Positions 7,497 through 20,574 of a DNA stretch of 22,478 nt are shown in pieces. This stretch comes from a virus. The stretch covers positions 1-22,478 of IMG/VR virus record IMGVR_UViG_3300044627_003703. One strand, written 5' to 3'. A program made the position numbers and the translations under genes. The notes under the pieces are model-generated. The model searched no databases. It was not told the DNA's origin and was given only the letters and a program-made list of their open reading frames with translations. The number at the start of each line of letters is the position of its first letter. Within the stretch, counting starts at the first letter, position 1.

Positions 7497-8665
7497 CTTG
7501 AAACCTTGAAATAATACTGGTTATCGAATATTTGAGATATATTGCCACCATCTGTTTCCGATTTGATTAAAACTCTATAAAATCTTTCTGGTTGAAATGA
7601 ATCCATCCACAATTTGAAATAATTACCATCTCCATCGCAGCTAAGTTTTGAACCAGTCTTATCGAATGGAATTATAATTTCGTCTGTATGTGCATCTCTG
7701 ATTTCGTAATAAGAAGATGTTGGTAGAAAATAATTTTGTGTGTAATATGACTGTGTTGTGTATGTTTTTTGTGGATATTTGCTATTCACATATACTCGTA
7801 TTTTTGCCTTTTCTGTTTCAGAATATGATTTTTTTAGATTTACATTGATTAGTGTATCATCTAAAGAAAGTTGTGTGAGGCTACCAGTCTGAAATGATGA
7901 ATCATCCCATACAACAAAAAGTCTTGGGACATAAATCGTGTTACTATCAGTTGAGAAAAATTTCAAGCTAGGAAGTGTTTCCGTTGAGGACTCTATATCG
8001 TTTGAAAATTTTAGTATAAATCCTTCGTTATCAAATCTACCAGATCCAGTTATCCATTTTTTTACGATTGAAGTCACATTCATATAAATGTCAGATGATT
8101 CATATGAGAATGACTGTGTGCAAGTAGTATTTTCAAATGTCCACCATGTTCCCCCACCGACTGATGAGAAGTATGAACCGGTTGACGAAGCATATAATGC
8201 TCCAAAAATTAGATTAGCATCCACCCAGCTATCGGATATTTCATCCCATTCATAATTTAGACCACCAGTTACTTCGGTTACACCCCATAATTTTCCAACT
8301 GACTTAGAAGAACGATATTTCCAAGAAACACCATCTGTTGTTATCGGTGTGTTGTTATATTTACCCGTTCCGTTTACCCAAGAACCACTTATAGGATATG
8401 CATATACTGTATATTCTTGTGGTATTTCTCTAACGTCTGCAGTCCTTAGCTGTAAGTAATATTTTGCGTTTGAAGATATTTTTCCAGAGTTTACGTCCGA
8501 TTCTATACCTGATACATCAAATTTCATCAAAATTCTACTGTTGTATTTTGATGAACTACCTACCAATTGATGGGATAATTCCAAAATTTGGTCTGTACCA
8601 GTATTTAGAGATTCTGTTCTTTCATATATTGTAGAATCAAATTTAGGATAAATGGTGTATATCAT
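7493..8665 (-). CDS. Baseplate-associated protein with DNRLRE-like N-terminal domain (390 aa)
   Basis: Both ends overlap neighbours by four bases (gp6 upstream, the coiled-coil gene downstream). The N-terminal half follows the pattern of DNRLRE/carbohydrate-binding-like beta-sandwich domains: IYPKFDSTIYERTESLNTG at the start, then RILMKFDVSGIES (the rsLlrFDls.i motif), then AKYYLQLRTADV, and later YMNVTSIVKKWITGSGRFDN, which matches the usual V...V..W..G...N.G segment. The C-terminal 150 residues are a second beta domain (KIRVYVNSKYPQKTY, ERFYRVLIKS). Proteins with this fold usually act as extracellular surface or adhesion modules in bacteria. In a baseplate operon it probably forms a peripheral wedge or fibre-attachment part (inference). 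No enzyme motif is visible. Confidence 0.8.
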   Translation of the reverse strand: MIYTIYPKFDSTIYERTESLNTGTDQILELSHQLVGSSSKYNSRILMKFDVSGIESDVNSGKISSNAKYYLQLRTADVREIPQEYTVYAYPISGSWVNGTGKYNNTPITTDGVSWKYRSSKSVGKLWGVTEVTGGLNYEWDEISDSWVDANLIFGALYASSTGSYFSSVGGGTWWTFENTTCTQSFSYESSDIYMNVTSIVKKWITGSGRFDNEGFILKFSNDIESSTETLPSLKFFSTDSNTIYVPRLFVVWDDSSFQTGSLTQLSLDDTLINVNLKKSYSETEKAKIRVYVNSKYPQKTYTTQSYYTQNYFLPTSSYYEIRDAHTDEIIIPFDKTGSKLSCDGDGNYFKLWMDSFQPERFYRVLIKSETDGGNISQIFDNQYYFKVSR

Positions 8666-10566
8666 CCGAATGCCCTCACTCTACCAATAATATCATTATC
8701 AGGGTATTTTATTTCAAAAATTGATGGATCAAGTGATGGAAAAACTATACCATTTTTAGTCGCGGTATCTATGTTGTAAGAATATTTCGAATATCCAAGA
8801 GTAGTATCATAAAAATTCACTATTCTAACATTAGATACGGTTTGAACACCTTCAACTCTATCGAGTTCGGTATAGATATTACTTATAACGATTGGTTGAT
8901 TTATTTGCCATCTTTTTATATCAAAGTATCGTTTTAGTTTATCTATACATCTCAATACAACCTGATTTCCATTTTGATCTGGCATTGTAATTATATCGAA
9001 TTCAATTCCGATGTTTATTATGTATGCGTCTTTTATGTTTATTGCGTCTGTCAATATTCTATGATGACCCAAATATGTTTTTAGATTTTCTTTGGTTGCA
9101 ACATTTATTGTTGTTAGTTTACTATTTGAATCATATCCCAAAACGTAAAAGTTCAATGCTAAATCGTTTGCAACTCTATCGCTATTGAATATGGATTCTT
9201 CTGTAAGTTGTGTGTCTTTTGTTATGTATGCCTTTGCTATTGACCCGTACTTCTGCGGAAGACTATATGCCCGAATAATATAATCTTCTTTTGTAACTGC
9301 ACGATTCTGTGAGGCAAATGATGCGAGAGCATTTTGACGAATTTCATTTATTGTCTCACCATCCTTACCACCAGTAGCAGGTTCAGGGTTTGTTGTTGCG
9401 ATACTACCAATTACTTGATTGTATAGTGTTATGTCTAGACCGGTTTCATCCAAAAGTATAGTTTTACTTACAATTCGTGTCAGTCTTTCTGATGCAACGT
9501 TGTCTCTTACACCACCACCCTGTGTGTAATATATTGTGAGTGTGGTATTGTTTGGGGCTAATCCATAAGTTTTTGTGTACAAAAAATTAGATGGGTCTAT
9601 ATTTGGAGATGTTGATGATTCAATTCCAGTAAGAGATGAACCAATCAAATCTGGGTTTGGTATTAGTTCTTCATCGTCAAAGTCAGAAACACCAGCACCA
9701 AAACTTATTTCATAGGAACTGGTGAAGTTATTTCCAAAAGCTCTTGAAGAAAATCGTCTAGAAACCCTATTCAATTTCAACAAATAAGGTGTCTCAGTTC
9801 TATATGAACTCAGTTGTTTATCATTTCTTGGTATGTTTGCAACAGATTCAAAGATAGTATCTTGTGCGAGATAAGGCACGTGCGTCCATTTGTTTCCGTC
9901 TGAATCTATCGCATATAGTATTTCTATGATTCTATCGTCGTTCAGAATGACTTTATCATATGGTTTTGGGGAACCAAAAGAGTAACTTGAAGTTTTTATT
10001 ACACCAGAAACTGCCTTTACAGACTTTTTCAGCAGATAAAAAGTTGGTTCCGTAGAATCTAAATCGTCTACCTCAAAAACAGTTACTTCAGTTGGTTCAA
10101 AAGAACTACTAAATCTAAAATCAAGATATTCTATTGTTCTAAATTGTATAGAGTTATCAGATTCGTCAGCAACAATCATACCAGGCTCTATTGCAAAAGC
10201 GTAACTCCAATCGGGAGTATTATTCACGCCAGTACCGATAGCAGGTACAATCTGAAATACGTCTATCGAAACATTAGCAGCAACAGAAGTCTTTGGTGTA
10301 TAACCAAATGATTGGGCAAGATTTATTATGTTTTGAGTTTCGGATGCCTGTAGTATCATTGACTCTTGGAGTGCAACATCCGTATAATACGAAAGCACAT
10401 CGCCGACGTATGCAGACATTTCCATAAACATCATACCAGGTGATGATTCGTTGAAATCTTGGTATGAATTTGGAAAATAGTTTTTTGCAAAATCTATAAG
10501 ATTCTGTCTCAATGAACCGAAATCTCTTGAGAGATAACGAATATCCTTTTTTACTAAATCTGCCAT
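8662..10566 (-). CDS. 6: Baseplate wedge protein gp6-like (baseplate J-like)
   Basis: At 634 residues it is close in length to T4 gp6 (660). The N-terminus shows the hallmark of the family: LSRDFGSLRQNLIDFAKNYF, then SSPGMMFMEMSAYVGDVLSY with YTDVALQES, then ASETQNIINLAQSFGYTP (roughly residues 12-92). The middle holds the J-like core with RQNALASFASQNRAVTKEDY (about 407-426), the segment leading into the conserved domain that multimerises around the hub. gp6 dimers tie together with gp7 and build the ring that holds baseplate wedges. The start overlaps the gp25 stop by one base (TAATG), with a GAGG ten bases upstream. gp25 directly before and a gp7-like protein three genes later give the canonical wedge-core order. 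Confidence 0.93.
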   Translation of the reverse strand: MADLVKKDIRYLSRDFGSLRQNLIDFAKNYFPNSYQDFNESSPGMMFMEMSAYVGDVLSYYTDVALQESMILQASETQNIINLAQSFGYTPKTSVAANVSIDVFQIVPAIGTGVNNTPDWSYAFAIEPGMIVADESDNSIQFRTIEYLDFRFSSSFEPTEVTVFEVDDLDSTEPTFYLLKKSVKAVSGVIKTSSYSFGSPKPYDKVILNDDRIIEILYAIDSDGNKWTHVPYLAQDTIFESVANIPRNDKQLSSYRTETPYLLKLNRVSRRFSSRAFGNNFTSSYEISFGAGVSDFDDEELIPNPDLIGSSLTGIESSTSPNIDPSNFLYTKTYGLAPNNTTLTIYYTQGGGVRDNVASERLTRIVSKTILLDETGLDITLYNQVIGSIATTNPEPATGGKDGETINEIRQNALASFASQNRAVTKEDYIIRAYSLPQKYGSIAKAYITKDTQLTEESIFNSDRVANDLALNFYVLGYDSNSKLTTINVATKENLKTYLGHHRILTDAINIKDAYIINIGIEFDIITMPDQNGNQVVLRCIDKLKRYFDIKRWQINQPIVISNIYTELDRVEGVQTVSNVRIVNFYDTTLGYSKYSYNIDTATKNGIVFPSLDPSIFEIKYPDNDIIGRVRAFG

Positions 10567-11084
10567 TAGTTTTGAGCCTCTTCAATTACACGAATAGTTG
10601 CTGTTTCAGATATAAATATCCTAACTGGCAAATATATGTTTGTTCCTGAAATTAATACACGTAGAAAAATACTAATTGCATGATTTGGATCATCAACTCT
10701 ACCATCGTCGGAAATGTTCAGATTTACTGTTAGTTCTGTTACAATTAGATACGGTAACCAAATTGAAATTGCAGTCTCTATATCTCCTCGAATTCTATTT
10801 GTAAATTCTTCTTCATCGGTTATATTCTCAAATAATATAGATCTAATATCTGTTCCAAACTCTGGCTCAAAATATCTTTCACCTTTTGCAGTAAGTAAGA
10901 GATTCTTTAGATTACTCAGTACCTGATTCTTGTTTGTTGTACTCGTAAAGAATATACCATTCGGATTGTTGAACGGCAATGTTACCCCGATTGGTTTTAT
11001 TACACCAGGTCTCCTCAAATCTTGAACTTGAGATGTATTTGAGTCAGTTGGATTGAGTAATAGTGTTTTCCTGCGAAATGCCAT
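10566..11084 (-). CDS. 25: Baseplate wedge protein gp25-like
   Basis: This 172-residue protein has the gp25/W family core: LSNLKNLLLTAKGERYFEPE (residues 57-76) leading into FGTDIRSILFENIT, i.e. the family's G.R...P.fG signature, then EEFTNRIRGDIETAISIWLPYL and a strand pair (ELTVNLNISDD, ISIFLRVLISG) as in the gp25-like lysozyme-fold domain. A family member sits at the heart of every contractile baseplate wedge and triggers sheath assembly. An extra 45 N-terminal residues (RRKTLLLNPTDSN and following) extend the core compared with T4 gp25 (132 aa). AGGAG seven bases before the ATG fixes the start. The lysozyme-like fold of this family is structural; I claim no enzymatic activity. Confidence 0.92.
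   Translation of the reverse strand: MAFRRKTLLLNPTDSNTSQVQDLRRPGVIKPIGVTLPFNNPNGIFFTSTTNKNQVLSNLKNLLLTAKGERYFEPEFGTDIRSILFENITDEEEFTNRIRGDIETAISIWLPYLIVTELTVNLNISDDGRVDDPNHAISIFLRVLISGTNIYLPVRIFISETATIRVIEEAQN
10611..10618 (-). promoter_or_regulatory. Candidate promoter element TATTTATA upstream of gp6
   Basis: The minus strand reads GGATATTTATATC here, within the 3' end of the gp25 gene and 45 bases before the gp6 ATG. It shares the nine bases ATATTTATA with the two intergenic elements at 1652 and 21277. Being inside coding sequence, it is the weakest of the three as a promoter. Confidence 0.2.
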
Positions 11085-11086
11085 TA

Positions 11087-11527
11087 TTAGACTCCTTTTT
11101 TCTCATTTATTTTTGCCATGAGAGCAGAATAATCACGAGTAAGTGCCTTTGATACTTCTGGTGTTATTTCTTCTTGATTATATCCATCTGGTATCATTCC
11201 ATTATTCATTCTCCCTGACATAATCGAATCGGTATTGAATCGCATTTCCGGATATTCTTCTTCCTGCATCGCGTGTTCCATTGACATTCTTGTTTCATTT
11301 AGAATATCTTGAATACTAGATAATCCAGTTTTTGAAGGTCTTGATGGTTTCATTTCCTTTTGAGGTTGCTTCTTTATCGAGGATAATTCTTTCATCAAAG
11401 ACATACCATGTTCTAATGTTTTTTTATCAGTAGTCTTTTTAGACTCATTGATTTTTTTATCAAGAGCATATTCGATTTCTTCTCTGATTATTACTCTTAT
11501 TTGTTTCAGGAGTTTATCCAAACTCAT
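11087..11527 (-). CDS. Small helical protein of the baseplate operon (146 aa), unknown
   Basis: GGAG seven bases before the ATG supports the start, which lies one base after the stop of the 902-residue gene; the stop is two bases before the gp25 ATG. The protein is Lys, Glu and Met-rich and predicted mostly helical: an amphipathic helix KLLKQIRVIIREEIEYALDK (residues 5-24), a basic disordered stretch KKQPQKEMKPSRPSKTG, a helix around LSSIQDILNETRMSMEHAMQ, then EVSKALTRDYSALMAKINEK near the end. No Cys, no membrane segment. Position between hub and wedge genes suggests a tail assembly chaperone or a small baseplate component such as the T4 gp26/gp51/gp53 class, but I see no sequence signature for any of them. 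The N-terminal IIREEI helix resembles leaders I recall in many marine phage proteins. Confidence 0.75.
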   Translation of the reverse strand: MSLDKLLKQIRVIIREEIEYALDKKINESKKTTDKKTLEHGMSLMKELSSIKKQPQKEMKPSRPSKTGLSSIQDILNETRMSMEHAMQEEEYPEMRFNTDSIMSGRMNNGMIPDGYNQEEITPEVSKALTRDYSALMAKINEKKGV

Positions 11528-11528
11528 A

Positions 11529-14237
11529 TCATATCTCCATTATATTTCTTAAAATATTGAAAGCAGCAGGATTCAATTCTTTGTCTTTTTTTACTTGTAA
11601 GTCGTTTACATATTTCTTGTAAGTTTCAGTTTGTTTGACACTAAATCCAATTCCGTTAGTATATGGTTTTGCATCTCCTCGTCTATGGACAAAGAAATAC
11701 GGTATTTTACCATTGAAATCGTGAATACCGGTATATTTTTTGAATCCATACTCCTCCCCATTTCCATCCGAGTTGTCTAGTCCGGTATTTCCACCTATAG
11801 TGTATATCTCACCGGTCGGTGAAAAATGTAATAGTGTTTCTACGTGACCAGAACCGTTACCGTCAGGTCTTCTCACCACAAATGCACCTGGCCAATTTTT
11901 TATCTTATCCCAAAGTTGTTTACCAGCTTCAGTAAAACCTTTTGTTGTCCAATGAAATCCATTTTCAAATAATGCAACAACGTTATTTTCATTATAAACA
12001 GTACCGGAAGATGAATTTTTTGAAATACTATCCAATTCTGATTGATATTCTTTTATATCATCTTCCAATTTTTTGTTTGCATTCTCTAAGTTTTGTATTT
12101 CTCTCTCAAGGTTTTTAACTTTTATGTAGAATCCATCTATCTTTTTTTGATTATATTTTGTTGGATCTGTATTGTCTCTATAGTTTGCTTCATTTTTTTC
12201 TGCATTTTGTTTTTCTTTTTCTAGTGATGTTTTCTTTGTTTTTATTGAAGAGTTATTACCAGAAATGGTTCCTTTTTTAGAAGATATATCATTCTGTAAT
12301 TTCTTTTTTCGACTATCCAATCGTTCTCCAAAAATGTTAAATGGTGATTTGGAATAAAGTGTTGGGGCGTTTCTTGTGTTTGTTATGTCCACAGGATTAC
12401 TATCAGATGAATATTTACTATTAGAATAAAGCATAAAATTTGTACACAGACCACACCAAAATGGATTTGCAGCCCAATTTGTATCTATCTCATCTGGGTG
12501 GTCGATAACGGAAGCGAATGAACCTATACCCCCTTGTGATTCTTTTACTACACTACGAGCTCTTGTTATTGCGGCGTGTATTTCCGACCCTTCCCCAAAC
12601 ATATACGGCCAATTTTTATTGAATCTACCAACTCCACCGGAATTCATTAGAAGTGCCGCATCTATTGGAGATTCAACAGTATATCCTTTGAAAATTTTAT
12701 CCAATTGAGAACCAAAAGAGAATAGATTTTTAAATCTACTTTCAGTACTGCCAAAATCTATTGGGGGTTGTGAGTTTTTTGGGTGTAATTTTGCACTTAT
12801 TCCTCTAAAAAATATTCCATTCGTCGGATCTTTACCAACACTATTCATCCATTTTATAAAAGTCAATGCGCGTGGTGGAATCTGTGTCATTGCTTTTGGT
12901 TTTTTATCTTCAGGTATTGGTTTTGATTTTTCCTCTATTTTTACAGTTTTACCTTCAGGTAAATCGGGATTAGAACCATCGGGTACACCATTTGACTTTT
13001 CTTTTACTTGTTTTTTTTCTAAAGCATCCGACTCTTCTGATTTTCTCTGAGCTTCTGTTTCTTGTTTTTTCTGCTCTATTTCTTTATTTACTACTTCTTT
13101 ATTTACTTCACTACCAGGTTGTACTTTATCTTTAGATTGTGAATTTACCTTTTCTGTTTGAATTTGTTTTATTTGACTTTCACTATAATAGTCTTCAACA
13201 ACTGGGTCATCTTGTAAAAATACAGTTGATAAGTAATTTGAACTTCCAGTATTCTCCGTTCTTATAACAATTTCGTCATCTTTTACAGCTTCTATTGAGA
13301 GATATTTTCGAGTATTACCAGAAGTTCCAGCTTGAGGTGTTGCATTTGTTTGACCGGAATCCGTGGTCTGATTATTTACTTCTTCGGTTGTACCGATAAC
13401 ACCAGTTGTACCAGCTACACCAGCTACACCAGCTACTCCACTAACACCAGTTGTACCAGCTGCACCAGTTACTCCACTAACACCAGTTGTACCAGGATTT
13501 TGTGGTGTACCAAAAAGTTCATCCCATCCTTCCGGTTTTGGAAAAATGTTATTGAACTCGCCACGTACTCCCTCATTAGTACCATCGGGTATATCAATAA
13601 ATGAATTTACTATGACAGGTATGGATGATATTTCTAGAAAATTAGTACCTTCCAGTTCTTCATTTATACTTTCTATATGTTTAGAAAATCCTTTATTTTC
13701 ATTTATCTGTGAGATTGGATATGATAAAGAAGATAATGCTTTACTAAGTTCTTGATATGATTCTGCAACTATGGTGTTGTAATCTGTTCTAATACTTTCT
13801 ATTAGGGATGGATTTGTTTCATTTGGAAGTTTTAGATATGATGTTTCAAACACACCAACATTCAATGAGAATTTCTTATTTATAAAAGTACCTGTTTGTG
13901 AAATTCCACAGTAACCGGTCAGAAGTAAATAACCAAATGGTTCATCTTTGTTTGATAGTTTGTCTTGAAAATCTTTTCTTATTTTTGACCCACGTTGAGA
14001 TGTTGGAAGGTTCAAAAAATCCCATAACAGTTCATCTTTTGGATAAAAATCATTCGCTGTATAAAAAGCAGAAATATAAGATGAATCAATCAAACCACGT
14101 TCAGGGTCTGATATTTGCAGTTTAGAATATCTTTTTACTTCTTGGGTAATTTGAGAACTAAATATACCCTGAAGTTTTAGAATTTTTTCCTTTCTGTCTT
14201 TTCTATATTTTTCCGCGAGTTCTTCTCTTGTTGCCAT
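11529..14237 (-). CDS. Tail-associated CHAP-type hydrolase with collagen-like tract and coiled-coil insertion
   Basis: This 902-residue protein looks modular. Residues 1-240 are an N-terminal domain of unknown fold. Residues about 247-285 are twelve Gly-X-Y triplets (GTTGVSGVTGAAGTTGVSG and onward), followed by an acidic and Gln/Lys-rich low-complexity linker to about 450. The C-terminal part matches an NlpC/P60-CHAP amidase/peptidase: NPFWCGLCTNFML with nucleophile candidate C595, PGAFVVRR then GHVETLL with H798, and IGGNTG with N817. CHAP domains cleave peptidoglycan, so it is probably the baseplate enzyme that opens the cell wall. Unusually, about 200 residues separate Cys from His, including a strong coiled coil at 638-740; CHAP domains usually have well under 100. 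It sits next to a gp5-like protein that lacks a lysozyme domain, which suggests the two share the hub role. The start is the ATG at 14237. Confidence 0.82.
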   Translation of the reverse strand: MATREELAEKYRKDRKEKILKLQGIFSSQITQEVKRYSKLQISDPERGLIDSSYISAFYTANDFYPKDELLWDFLNLPTSQRGSKIRKDFQDKLSNKDEPFGYLLLTGYCGISQTGTFINKKFSLNVGVFETSYLKLPNETNPSLIESIRTDYNTIVAESYQELSKALSSLSYPISQINENKGFSKHIESINEELEGTNFLEISSIPVIVNSFIDIPDGTNEGVRGEFNNIFPKPEGWDELFGTPQNPGTTGVSGVTGAAGTTGVSGVAGVAGVAGTTGVIGTTEEVNNQTTDSGQTNATPQAGTSGNTRKYLSIEAVKDDEIVIRTENTGSSNYLSTVFLQDDPVVEDYYSESQIKQIQTEKVNSQSKDKVQPGSEVNKEVVNKEIEQKKQETEAQRKSEESDALEKKQVKEKSNGVPDGSNPDLPEGKTVKIEEKSKPIPEDKKPKAMTQIPPRALTFIKWMNSVGKDPTNGIFFRGISAKLHPKNSQPPIDFGSTESRFKNLFSFGSQLDKIFKGYTVESPIDAALLMNSGGVGRFNKNWPYMFGEGSEIHAAITRARSVVKESQGGIGSFASVIDHPDEIDTNWAANPFWCGLCTNFMLYSNSKYSSDSNPVDITNTRNAPTLYSKSPFNIFGERLDSRKKKLQNDISSKKGTISGNNSSIKTKKTSLEKEKQNAEKNEANYRDNTDPTKYNQKKIDGFYIKVKNLEREIQNLENANKKLEDDIKEYQSELDSISKNSSSGTVYNENNVVALFENGFHWTTKGFTEAGKQLWDKIKNWPGAFVVRRPDGNGSGHVETLLHFSPTGEIYTIGGNTGLDNSDGNGEEYGFKKYTGIHDFNGKIPYFFVHRRGDAKPYTNGIGFSVKQTETYKKYVNDLQVKKDKELNPAAFNILRNIMEI
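13389..13497 (-). repeat. Collagen-like Gly-X-Y coding repeat
   Basis: A tandem array of nine-base codon units encodes GTT/GVS/GVT/GAA/GVA/GVI triplets. Within it, a perfect 25-base copy (13435-13459 and 13471-13495) recurs with a 36-base (12-residue) period, pointing to recent expansion by slippage or recombination. Collagen-like tracts in phage tail proteins form triple helices that trimerise and extend fibres. Confidence 0.85.
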
Positions 14238-14241
14238 ATCT

Positions 14242-15573
14242 TTACTCGTTGAAAGTTACTGTTCCAGATTTATCACCACCTTGTTTTTCAGGTACCTTTA
14301 CAATAAAGGAATTCTTCTTAAGTTCACTAAACTTATTTTTATCTACGCTAGATGGTCCACCAGAAAACTCATTTACGAAAGCGAATTTACTCGCGATTTT
14401 AGGTAATGAATTTATTAATCTAGATAAAGCATTGACATAACTCACGTATTCTCCACTATTAATTGGTGTACCCGAAGGACCTACTCCAGTTGGATGTGTC
14501 ATCTTTACAATAGATTGATTCATGTCAATCAAAATATCCATTAGGGACTTTAGGACTTCTATAAGCCGATCACCCAATATAATCGGAGATGTTGCGTTGA
14601 ATCCCAAAGAAATCCTACCACCCTCAATCTCAACTATATTCTTGGCGTTTAGTGCTAAAGTTTTTTCCGTGGCAAACCCAATACCTTCTTTTGCAAAACC
14701 AACCAGTTCTTGTTTATTTGAGTTCAGAACTATTCTATCGGACGCAAGTATTATTTGATTACCACCAAATAAGTTCTTTCTAAACAGACCAATCTCTTTA
14801 TCAAAGATTGATGGCGTATATGTTGAAGACGGTGTAAATTTTACAGACTGACCGGATGTTAGCCAAATTGATGCATCGTCATCATCAGGACTTTCTATGT
14901 GAAATTGATTGAATGACTTTTCTATTTTCTTTGGATTTGTTCCATTAGAAATAATAGTTATTGGATTACCTGTTGCACCAGTTCCAACTCCCCACTTTGG
15001 ATTTAGTTGGTATTTACGTCTTGTATCAACGGTGGAGCCAAGACGAATTGATTGCCCCCATCTACCCTCTATAATAAGGTCACCAGAAAATGGTTGTATT
15101 GGATAAACATCATTTCTTTCTGGAAATGTTGGGTCTATTGTTTCCTTTATATCCGTTCTTTCCGAAAGTTTTTTTACTATACCGAGTGATGCATCCGTTG
15201 ATTTCTGTGTGTTATTCCTGTCATCAAGAAGAACTTTATTTGCACCAGGAATTCCATTGTGGTGAACAGAAGACTGTATAGATATTGGATGTGTGTAGTA
15301 GTATTCTCGACCATATCCTGCACCAGAGTGATATGGGGTTGGTGCTTTACAAACTAAAACTATCTCACCTTTTATTGGGATTTGTTTTATATTGGCATTT
15401 ATTGCCCTAGCTTGAATCAAATCAGTTGGAGTTGCAGCAGACTCCGCATTCAAAAACTTACACTTTATGGTATACAGCCTACTTGGGTTACGTGTTTCAT
15501 AATCAACCGAAACTACTTCAGCAGGAGCCCATTCATATTCTTGTGCATTAAGTATTATCTTTTGAAAGTTCAT
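14242..15573 (-). CDS. gp5-like baseplate hub/spike protein without lysozyme domain
   Basis: I choose the ATG at 15573 (443 aa); a GTG at 15600 would add nine residues but has no ribosome site, while GAGG and AGAG precede the ATG. The N-terminal region has the oligonucleotide-binding-type beta barrel expected of gp5/VgrG-like hubs (EWAPAEVVSVDY, TIKCKFLN, IPIKGEIVLVCKAPTP). Next come GDLIIEGRWGQSIRLGSTVD and repeated short beta motifs (SIWLTSGQSVKFTPS, NQIILASDRIVLNSN, KTLALNAKNIVEIEGGRISL), which look like a beta-helix spike core. T4 gp5 has a lysozyme between barrel and helix; no lysozyme-like segment or E..DT catalytic pattern is visible here. A helical C-terminal part (LIEVLKSLMDILIDMNQSIV) follows. 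The gene opens the baseplate operon, four bases before the CHAP protein start. The hub assignment is by motif and context. Confidence 0.8.
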   Translation of the reverse strand: MNFQKIILNAQEYEWAPAEVVSVDYETRNPSRLYTIKCKFLNAESAATPTDLIQARAINANIKQIPIKGEIVLVCKAPTPYHSGAGYGREYYYTHPISIQSSVHHNGIPGANKVLLDDRNNTQKSTDASLGIVKKLSERTDIKETIDPTFPERNDVYPIQPFSGDLIIEGRWGQSIRLGSTVDTRRKYQLNPKWGVGTGATGNPITIISNGTNPKKIEKSFNQFHIESPDDDDASIWLTSGQSVKFTPSSTYTPSIFDKEIGLFRKNLFGGNQIILASDRIVLNSNKQELVGFAKEGIGFATEKTLALNAKNIVEIEGGRISLGFNATSPIILGDRLIEVLKSLMDILIDMNQSIVKMTHPTGVGPSGTPINSGEYVSYVNALSRLINSLPKIASKFAFVNEFSGGPSSVDKNKFSELKKNSFIVKVPEKQGGDKSGTVTFNE

Positions 15574-15919
15574 CTGACTCTGTTGCCTCGTGTGATTCAC
15601 CTATTGTTTTGATCTCTTTTAGAAGAGCATCCTTTTCTTCATCTGTCAAGAATGAACTTCCTTCTTCCGTAGTCTTTGAAACCATACGTTGAATAACAGC
15701 GGCTAATTTTACAAGATGTTCATCATTCTTGACCGATACTTCCATATAATCTTTGATGACAGGAACAAGTAAAGCCGCATCACCTATATTTGTAATAAGC
15801 GGTTTCAAGTCCGCAATCAGAAGATTTATCTGGCGGTCTTTTTTCTTTTGGTTCTCGTAAATGTCTTTTAGTAAGTCCGAGAACTTTTTATTTCCGAATA
15901 TTTCTGCGTCAAAGCTCAT
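15548..15919 (-). CDS. Small helical protein between sigma factor and hub gene (123 aa), unknown
   Basis: The protein is predicted almost entirely helical: FSDLLKDIYENQKKKDRQIN, then LLIADLKPLITNIGDAALLV, then VIKDYMEVSVKNDEHLVKLA and a Glu/Lys/Ser-rich acidic tail. No Cys, membrane segment or enzyme motif. No convincing ribosome binding site precedes the ATG at 15919, so translation may rely on coupling to the sigma-factor gene that ends 14 bases upstream. The stop lies 26 bases inside the start of the hub gene. Small helical proteins in this position of T4-like genomes are often tail assembly factors, but I recognise no family. Confidence 0.72.
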   Translation of the reverse strand: MSFDAEIFGNKKFSDLLKDIYENQKKKDRQINLLIADLKPLITNIGDAALLVPVIKDYMEVSVKNDEHLVKLAAVIQRMVSKTTEEGSSFLTDEEKDALLKEIKTIGESHEATESDELSKDNT

Positions 15920-16989: not shown

Positions 16990-17649
16990 TCATCCTCTCT
17001 TGAATTTTGGCTCGATGATTGAATCAATTACACCAAGTCCGAGTGCCTCTTCAGGTGATAGATAATAATCTTTGAGTGTTGTTTCTTTCCAAAACTTTGC
17101 ATCCTTGTTTGAGTTTTCACTCATAATCTGAACAAGAACTTCTTCCAACTTTTCCATGTGTTGGACGTTTGCCTTCATATCGGATGACTTACCATAGATA
17201 CCTGATGACATTTCATGGAACATGATTGTACTGTTCTTTGAAGCGGCACGAACACCTGTTCCTGAACAGAGAAGTAGAGCTGCGGCTGACATTGCACGTC
17301 CTCTACAAATTGTGTTTACCTTGACATTGAGTGATTGAATAAAATCAATCATACCGAGCGCCTCATATACATCACCACCGTCAGAATTGATAATAATGTT
17401 GATTGGATTATTCTTCTTCTCATCATCTCTCATGTGAAGAATTGCCTTTATTCTCAACATAAAATCATAAAGAGTTCCATCTGCAATATCACCAAACATA
17501 TACAGAGTTGAACTTTCTACATCAATACCGTAGTCAATTTGGGAAAGAGCTTCTTTCCACTTCACAGGTAAGTCTTCACCTTTATCTTCTGTTTTCTTTA
17601 CAGTTGACTTCTGTGTGTTTTCTTCTTCATCATCATAGAAACCTGCCAT
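16990..17649 (-). CDS. clpP: ClpP-type serine protease with complete catalytic triad
   Basis: The 219-residue product has an acidic/basic 25-residue leader, then a crotonase-fold ClpP body. INIIINSDGGDVYEALGMID (83-102) matches the family's strand-GGxV-helix. RGRAMSAAALLLCSG carries the nucleophile S121, TIMFHEMSSG the His H145, and KDYYLSPEEALGLGVIDSI the Asp D194. The Ser-His-Asp spacing of 24 and 49 residues agrees well with E. coli ClpP (25 and 49). The family usually needs a ClpX/ClpA-type ATPase to degrade folded proteins; a phage copy may use the host's ATPase or act as a virion-maturation protease. AGGAG seven bases before the ATG supports the start. No ATPase gene is visible in the window. 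Confidence 0.92.
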   Translation of the reverse strand: MAGFYDDEEENTQKSTVKKTEDKGEDLPVKWKEALSQIDYGIDVESSTLYMFGDIADGTLYDFMLRIKAILHMRDDEKKNNPINIIINSDGGDVYEALGMIDFIQSLNVKVNTICRGRAMSAAALLLCSGTGVRAASKNSTIMFHEMSSGIYGKSSDMKANVQHMEKLEEVLVQIMSENSNKDAKFWKETTLKDYYLSPEEALGLGVIDSIIEPKFKRG

Positions 17650-19291: not shown

Positions 19292-19585
19292 TTACTGTTT
19301 TACCAACTCTACTTGTTTTGTACCAGAATGATTAGAAACAATCTTTCCACCTTCGTATGAAAGAGAATCTATGTACTTCTGAACTTCAGCTTCTGTTGTG
19401 TCCCAACTATAACGTATCTCCGCAAAGAAATCATTGAGTGAATCAAAAACATCTGAACCTGGTTCTATCTCTAATGTCTTACCAACATACTTGTATTTTT
19501 GATTCATAACATTTTGTGGTAAAGATTCAGAAACATAATTTTCTGTTATAATACCAGCGAGTTTTTGTAATCTCTTTCTATCCAT
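19292..19585 (-). CDS. Small protein with basic amphipathic N-terminus (97 aa), unknown
   Basis: A TTG at 19618 and an ATG at 19600 give longer frames, but the ATG at 19585 has GGAG nine bases upstream and overlaps the UVDE stop by eight bases, so I choose it. The protein begins MDRKRLQKLAGIITENYVSE, a basic helix, followed by a mixed alpha/beta domain (VGKTLEIEPGSDVFDSLNDF, with AEVQKYIDSLSYEGGKIVSN). No Cys, membrane segment or recognised domain. The RLQKLAGI leader is reminiscent of N-terminal leaders I recall in other marine phage proteins; this may be a targeting tag (inference). It lies ten bases before the membrane protein gene. Confidence 0.7.
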   Translation of the reverse strand: MDRKRLQKLAGIITENYVSESLPQNVMNQKYKYVGKTLEIEPGSDVFDSLNDFFAEIRYSWDTTEAEVQKYIDSLSYEGGKIVSNHSGTKQVELVKQ

Positions 19586-20495
19586 TTTGAATTTCTCCAT
19601 TGTGTTTACGATATTCAAGTAGTGCCAATTCTTTGGCTTTACATTCCAACATAATATCTACGTTATGACTATAAGTATTTATTTTCTCCAAAATGTAATC
19701 CGCGTGAGCCTGTGGTTTATCCTTTGGATTACCTGACTCTTTTGGTTTCGATGATGAGTAATGAACAACAGGAGTAATACCATCAGGCCATGTTGACATA
19801 GCAAGTTCAAGGGCTTCTTGTTCAGACAAACCGCCTGTGTTGAACGTGTGGTGGTGATAATCAAATACGATTGGAATACCAATACGTTCGTGAATATACA
19901 TCAGGTCTTTGACACTATACATACTCGCCTTATCATCATTCTCAACTGTAAGACGAGATTTGACAGACTCTGACAATCTGTCATAGTTGTCACAAAAACG
20001 TTGCATACTTGCAATTTTATCACCATATGTTCCGTTACAATGGATGTTTATCTTGTTGTATGGTGTATGTGAAAGTTGGAGTAAGTCAAGAACCTTACCG
20101 TGGTTTTCTAAGTCGATGATAGTGTTCTGAACTACTTTCTCATTTGGTGAACAGAGTACGTTGAAAGGGCCAGGATGACACCCTAAACGAACGTCATTGA
20201 GTTTTACATACTCACCTGTACGTTTCATTACCTCTCCAATTTCCTGTATGTTAGGGAGGTTTTCTATACCATATTCGGATGCCCACGGGAACATATCGGA
20301 TGAGATACGGAAAAGTTTGATGTTGTTTTCTACGTTCCAATGAATAATAGTTTCCAAGTCCTTGACGTTTTGGAGACCAAGTTCAGCGGCATAATTGATG
20401 CCACGTTGAAGAAACGTTTTCTTTATCATTGACCGATTGGTGGTAATCTTCTTCTTACCGAGGGTCATATTGATACAGGCATAACCGAGATTCAT
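19578..20495 (-). CDS. uvsE: UV damage endonuclease (UVDE/UvsE family)
   Basis: I choose the ATG at 20495 (305 aa), with AGGA six bases upstream; a longer frame from 20573 would begin inside a terminator hairpin. It opens with MNLGYACINMTLG, the family's N-terminal signature, and shows KLFRISSDMFPWASEYG (60-76), RLGCHPGPF (H107), INIHCNGTYGDK (H152), LTVENDD (E185), VFDYHHH (D212, H214-H216) and VVHYSSS (H245), plus LECKAKE near the end. These line up with the metal ligands of the three-metal TIM-barrel UVDE nucleases, which nick 5' of pyrimidine dimers and (6-4) products. Length matches the family. It would let the phage genome survive sunlight. One residue two before H245 is Val, where I recall a carboxylated Lys in the Thermus enzyme; uncertain. 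A terminator precedes the gene, so it probably has its own promoter. Confidence 0.93.
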   Translation of the reverse strand: MNLGYACINMTLGKKKITTNRSMIKKTFLQRGINYAAELGLQNVKDLETIIHWNVENNIKLFRISSDMFPWASEYGIENLPNIQEIGEVMKRTGEYVKLNDVRLGCHPGPFNVLCSPNEKVVQNTIIDLENHGKVLDLLQLSHTPYNKINIHCNGTYGDKIASMQRFCDNYDRLSESVKSRLTVENDDKASMYSVKDLMYIHERIGIPIVFDYHHHTFNTGGLSEQEALELAMSTWPDGITPVVHYSSSKPKESGNPKDKPQAHADYILEKINTYSHNVDIMLECKAKELALLEYRKHNGEIQNG

Positions 20496-20534
20496 AACAA
20501 TCCTATGATGAATAATGTGAGTTCTAATATAAGG

Positions 20535-20574
20535 AAAAAAACAATGGGAAACAAGAAAAATCTTGTCTCCCATT
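20535..20574 (-). terminator. Rho-independent terminator after the Fib_succ_major gene
   Basis: On the minus strand a 14-base-pair stem (20561-20574 with 20543-20556, one G-U pair in RNA) closes on a four-base loop (20557-20560) and is followed after one base by a run of seven T (complement of 20535-20541). It lies 23 bases after the stop of the 20598 gene and 40 bases before the UVDE start. Best terminator in the window. Confidence 0.88.

Follow-up and report, generated by a model that had tools for sequence, protein, structure and literature searches.

P0001 is a 902-residue protein encoded by an open frame without internal stops on the minus strand of an IMG/VR virus fragment from an uncultured contractile-tailed phage. 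The window, which is the whole stretch of DNA analysed, is 22,478 bases long, and the P0001 gene occupies positions 11529–14237; all features of the protein given below lie on the minus strand. The gene is located in a baseplate slot, with a spike-like gene upstream (14242–15600, minus strand) and the genes of p146 (11087–11527), a gp25-like baseplate wedge subunit (10566–11084) and a gp6-like baseplate wedge subunit (8662–10566) downstream, all on the minus strand. The two wedge subunits were identified with PHROGs profiles (phrog_261 with an E value of 1.9e-14 and phrog_6 with an E value of 9.4e-18, respectively), p146 is a conserved protein of 146 residues recognized by gene order in relatives, and the spike-like protein was named by gene order and by-eye inspection of its sequence, as it gave no profile match. 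The gene order around the slot is conserved over dozens of loci, the usual order being spike-like protein, slot protein or proteins, p146, gp25 and gp6, and some loci have no slot protein. By gp6 identity, Microcystis phage Mel-JY01 (69%) and the Flavobacterium immuto phages (44%) are the closest annotated phages. The slot between the spike-like and p146/gp25 genes is occupied by a GH19 protein in Mel-JY01 (PP395634) and by a helical protein of 371 residues in the immuto phages. Elsewhere in the window, two further regions resemble known proteins by eye: the one at 16990–17649 a ClpP-like protease, and the one at 19578–20573 a UvsE-like UV damage endonuclease.

The N-terminal domain of P0001 (residues 1–240, 13518–14237) is predicted by AF2 to be an alpha+beta domain of unassigned fold, with pLDDT values mostly between 75 and 90. 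This domain is limited to the coiled-coil lineage, and phmmer found relatives of it in L008, L020–L025 and L028. It is followed by a collagen-like tract (residues 249–284, 13386–13493) that features 12 uninterrupted G-X-Y triplets, the number given in the original prediction. The length of the run is beyond what is expected from composition, as the longest run was 5 triplets in 5000 shuffles of the whole protein and 7 in 20000 shuffles of the local segment. The Pfam Collagen profile (PF01391) matches with an E value of 5.7e-5, yet the score of 23.2 bits is under the curated cut-off of 27.2 bits. The DNA of the tract includes a 36-bp tandem repeat, and a relative that is about 97% identical has 15 triplets instead of 12, so that the repeat copy number differs between the two. 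Many family members carry collagen-like or G-T-S tracts, and several have no long G-X-Y run. The tract leads into a linker (residues 285–447, 12897–13385) that is predicted to be disordered except for one helix at residues 380–413, with pLDDT values mostly between 25 and 58. The DNA of linker residues 301–450 (about 12888–13337) is 79–91% identical to that of L008, and the identity falls to about 50% just past residue 450, which borders on the catalytic half. At the sequence level, this drop looks like a mosaic junction left by domain exchange.

The C-terminal half of P0001 features a CHAP-like core in two parts. The first part (residues 511–636, 12330–12707), delimited with the family alignment and AF2, holds the Cys helix, and the candidate nucleophile C595 (12453–12455), in the motif NPFWCGLC, is the second residue of helix 594–605. 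The second part (residues 745–902, 11532–12005) is predicted by AF2 to contain strands at residues 754–759, 785–789, 798–805, 811–815, 831–835 and 847–852, and a helix at 770–779 precedes strands 785–789, 798–805 and 811–815. The candidate catalytic H798 (11844–11846), in the motif SGHVETLL, was assigned by alignment and profile comparison and begins strand 798–805, and the candidate third residue N817 (11787–11789), in the motif TIGGNTG, was assigned by alignment and lies two residues past strand 811–815. E800 (11838–11840) is Glu or Asp in all family members, degenerate ones included, and N540, Y545, E552, W588, W594 and G816 are among the invariant residues, which are also retained in cores that lack the nucleophile. 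The predicted topology, for which alone the model of P0001 was used, is papain-like, with the Cys at a helix start and the His and Asn on the sheet. The order Cys, His and polar third residue is the canonical one, and in the alignments C595, H798 and N817 are kept together throughout the intact set. The three residues are found where the original prediction placed them, with C595 and H798 separated by 203 residues, close to the 200 it gave.

The relationship of this core to known families was examined with profiles and with predicted structures. The CHAP profile PF05257 matches residues 757–817 (11787–11969) with 16.4 bits against a curated cut-off of 26, with the His and the Asn, the latter at the end of the match, in register. 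TIGR02594 has a match in 11 of 32 members with a best E value of 0.0046, and P0001 itself scores 13 bits versus a cut-off of 70.55. All CHAP and TIGR02594 matches are below cut-off and confined to the His/Asn half, and the Cys half gave no profile match at all; the profile search proposed with the original prediction gave weak CHAP-type matches on one side of the coiled coil and returned nothing on the other. Removing residues 641–744 from the query still gave only weak CHAP/TIGR02594 matches, and family searches with the whole protein returned collagen-like and coiled-coil matches only. Comparison by hhalign with intact CHAP domains of neighbouring slot proteins pairs HVE..TIGGN of P0001 with HVG..TIEGN, with E values of 1.5e-4 and 8.7e-4 that are from single comparisons. 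The fold search with the full model was swamped by coiled coils, so L043, a relative that lacks the long insert, was used in place of P0001, and its core was folded and searched; the AF2 model of the L043 core has a pTM of 0.82 and an element order identical to that of P0001. The best match to this core in a viral fold library has an E value of 0.007, and most of the first 14 matches are CHAP, PlyB-like, TIGR02594 and other endolysins. The CHAP endolysin PlyGRCS is on top of the PDB fold list (E value of 0.071), and LysIME-EF1 and PcsB are found lower, within the first 22. No single fold match to the L043 core is significant in either the viral library or the PDB, and PDB sequence and profile searches returned nothing relevant for the core or for the spike-like protein. 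The family assignment to CHAP/TIGR02594 stays weak. The proposal that a CHAP-like domain is split by a coiled coil is supported by the predicted topology, by the sub-cut-off profiles with the His and Asn in register and by relatives that have no insert.

The element between the two parts is a coiled-coil hairpin of 104 residues (637–740, 12018–12329) that is absent or replaced in relatives. AF2 predicts two helices, at residues 637–689 and 705–740, with pLDDT values of about 80–95. The composition (19% Lys and 10% Glu) and the resemblance of the insert to SMC/Rad50 coiled coils in NCBIfam agree with the strong coiled coil anticipated between the Cys and the His. Fold matches to the full model are mostly coiled coils, among which the antiparallel iSH2 of p85 (5dxh_B) fits well, with an rmsd of 2.0 Å over 108 columns and a TMt of 0.77; this match is taken as a likeness of shape and not as kinship. 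The insert is best read from the model as a self-paired antiparallel hairpin that stands out as an arm. Such a structure favours one role that had been suggested for the coiled coil, that of a projecting arm, and not another, that of bringing three copies together, since the hairpin would pair with itself. In all relatives below 90% identity, conservation is lower in the insert than in the core (11–47% identical for the insert versus 35–57% for the core), for example 37% versus 57% in L022 and 20% versus 51% in L008.

The family was gathered by synteny, because direct searches with the whole protein reached no further than near-identical relatives plus one or two with about 50% identity. Loci were fetched via the gp6 neighbour, their open frames were searched and the set was later enlarged, for a total of about 45 distinct relatives of the domain. 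When the whole protein and three family cores were run by tblastn against cultured phages, no relative turned up, and bacterial and archaeal genome contigs, which were also scanned, gave none either. The spacing between the Cys and His columns, read from a 32-row alignment, differs between lineages. It is 195–217 residues in the coiled-coil group, 182 in L081, L089 and L093, 132–137 in most degenerate members (187 in L075), 112–114 in L043, L051, L061 and L078, and 70–72 in L029–L031, which have no insert. The last value agrees with the expectation that these motifs normally lie 60–80 residues apart. The length variation is confined to one site, flanked by the Cys helix and the loop after it on one side and by helix 770–779 on the other, and this one site takes different inserts, or none, according to lineage. 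An ancestral insert that was lost in L029–L031 was also considered; the tree, which was built without the insert and triad columns, gives no order for L028, L029–L031 and the coiled-coil group. The lineage-dependent insertion site, the minus-strand orientation and the loss of the nucleophile in many relatives go beyond the original prediction.

The Cys column is readable in 46 distinct cores. Cys, His, Glu and Asn are all present in twenty of these; one of the twenty is a second copy of the window protein, which leaves 19 intact members. The Cys is replaced by Ala, Ser or Asp in the other 26 cores, many of which also feature Tyr, Phe or Arg at the His position. In the 32-row alignment, all 18 members with Cys also have the His and the Asn, and the His is lost in 9 of the 14 members without Cys; the Fisher test for this association gives a p value of 7e-5, which is indicative only since the rows are related. 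The loss of the nucleophile coincides with the presence of other wall hydrolases. In none of the 19 intact members, two of whose loci (L010 and L089) are truncated upstream, was a further wall hydrolase detected within the protein or in an adjacent frame, and 25 of the 26 degenerate cores carry or adjoin one, in a count made by similarity to queries from degenerate members, which favours detection there. The same companion pattern emerges when the 36 aligned members are scanned independently with Pfam and PHROGs. The companions are M15/VanY-like domains, T4-type or other lysozymes, GH19 domains or a separate intact CHAP. The single exception, L195, has its 5' end cut off; in the core it shares 98% identity with L030, a relative that carries an M15-like domain. 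The intact L093 adjoins a NAGPA-like protein, which was left out of the wall-hydrolase count. On the tree at least two events of change from intact to degenerate took place, and two suffice, so the association with other hydrolases is replicated independently two times and not 26 times.

Several further features were observed in the slot genes. A canonical intact CHAP (WCA..GDI/GAL..GH..TIEGN) is encoded in the slot gene adjacent to a degenerate core in L062 (2393–4204), L074 (3064–4050) and L075 (3794–4771). The large slot frames of L175, L178 and L180 have lysozyme and M15 matches, and sometimes GH19 matches, around a degenerate core, and the lysozyme and GH19 calls in these frames may overlap. 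NAGPA-like (phosphodiester glycosidase) domains are found repeatedly within the slot or next to it (L031, 412–2766; L080, 7380–8021; L093, 2–1822; L091, 3073–4359). An extra conserved region (..IFVVGGI..YSAGVAGGH..) is located between the G-rich tract and the core at about residues 240–420 of the large slot frames of L060, L063 and L077.

Taken together, it is quite likely that P0001 belongs to the virion-associated peptidoglycan hydrolases and is located at or near the baseplate hub, with a divergent CHAP-like C-terminal half that bears a hairpin arm. Enzymes of this class are recognized by a wall-hydrolase domain encoded in a baseplate or tail cluster, which is the arrangement found here, with the domain itself weakly assigned. 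Judged from the conserved residues, the core is probably a CHAP-like cysteine hydrolase that is active in this phage. P0001 would be positioned at the baseplate hub and, as the tail penetrates, would cleave peptide or amide bonds in the host wall. The N-terminal domain would attach the protein, the collagen-like tract would serve as a flexible or trimerising linker to that domain, and the tract together with the disordered linker (285–447) would give reach. A core that is purely structural in P0001 as well, i.e. a papain-like docking module whose Cys, His and Asn do not cut the wall, is improbable. It would fit with the nucleophile-less cores, which retain the fold and the invariant residues, and with the acidic residue at position 800 in every member. 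However, Cys, His and Asn are co-conserved down to about 20% identity in lineages without another detectable wall hydrolase, and this joint retention is hard to explain without catalysis. What the degenerate lineages do suggest, since the fold persists after catalysis is lost, is that the core itself also contributes structurally; these lineages would retain the fold and leave the cutting to another wall hydrolase, located in the same polypeptide or encoded by an adjacent gene.

The role of the hairpin can be read in several ways. Because its sequence changes faster than that of the core and other lineages have other inserts or none, the arm of about 100 residues is likely not catalytic, and a spacer or a contact with another part of the baseplate would be its most likely function. 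It is unlikely that the coiled coil and the collagen-like tract both trimerise and place three copies of the enzyme around a threefold spike. Collagen-like tracts generally form triple helices, and such tracts, or G-T-S tracts, are found in many family members. The gp5 protein of the T4 baseplate hub is itself a trimer (PMC5380687). This arrangement is at odds with a predicted hairpin that is antiparallel and self-paired, and with the several members that do without a long G-X-Y run. By analogy with PcsB, a CHAP enzyme in which a coiled coil clamps the catalytic domain of the partner in an inactive state (PMC7468199), the hairpin might instead shield an active site, either its own or one in an adjacent copy, and release it upon contraction or contact with the wall. 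PcsB is present in both PDB fold lists, not significantly, and the members without an insert are degenerate (C to A), as expected if the insert serves catalysis. However, the PcsB coiled coil is not located between the Cys and the His, the hairpin of P0001 is conserved less than the core, and the intact L043, L051, L061 and L078 have only about 18 residues at the insertion site, so that a long insert is dispensable in an active-looking enzyme. Because of these intact members with a short element, a clamp on the active site is not favoured and is given a low probability, and the spacer or contact role of the arm is preferred.

It is possible, although we lean slightly against so general a statement, that the CHAP fold is an architectural part of the hub for which catalysis is optional. 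The active site would then be lost once another hydrolase is acquired, the fold would be kept as a dock and the one insertion site would accept lineage-specific arms. In P0001, a large helical arm parts the two halves of the active site of a phage tail enzyme domain, and the slot in question is one at which wall-cutting enzymes are exchanged among uncultured phages. The recurrent combination of a degenerate core with a different hydrolase offers a natural set for asking whether the fold serves assembly and whether inserts at the site regulate cutting. It is also a warning for annotation, as many relatives of the domain are not active cysteine hydrolases. A literature search of partial coverage returned no CHAP domain with a coiled coil between the Cys and the His, no degenerate cores beside other hydrolases and no report on Mel-JY01.

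Several known systems share parts of this architecture. The CHAP (PF05257; MEROPS C51) and TIGR02594 families have, like P0001, a Cys helix, a strand, a His at a strand start and an (E/G)GN motif after the next strand, whereas P0001 differs in its sub-cut-off scores, in the long element between the Cys helix and the strands and in about 80 conserved residues before the Cys. Virion-associated lysins at baseplates are well known, for example the tail lysozyme T4 gp5 (PMC5380687). The gene of T4 gp5, like that of P0001, has the spike and wedge genes of a contractile tail as neighbours and codes for a wall hydrolase, a probable one in the case of P0001; however, P0001 is separate from the spike-like protein and is CHAP-like instead of a lysozyme. 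The relative L062 has a domain that matches phrog_27932, annotated as 'baseplate hub subunit and tail lysozyme'. The GH19 protein of Mel-JY01 (343 residues) occupies the same slot as P0001 and is an unrelated enzyme without a CHAP-like core. PcsB of Streptococcus pneumoniae (4cgk) combines a CHAP domain and a coiled coil in one protein, as P0001 does (PMC7468199), but it is a cell division enzyme and its coiled coil is a separate domain that is not inserted among the catalytic residues. Within the papain-like superfamily, large insertions are known to separate the core helix from the sheet, the fingers of the USP deubiquitinases being one example (PMC10318531). The USP insert is a beta structure that grips ubiquitin, whereas the insert of P0001 is predicted to be a coiled-coil hairpin in a phage hydrolase.
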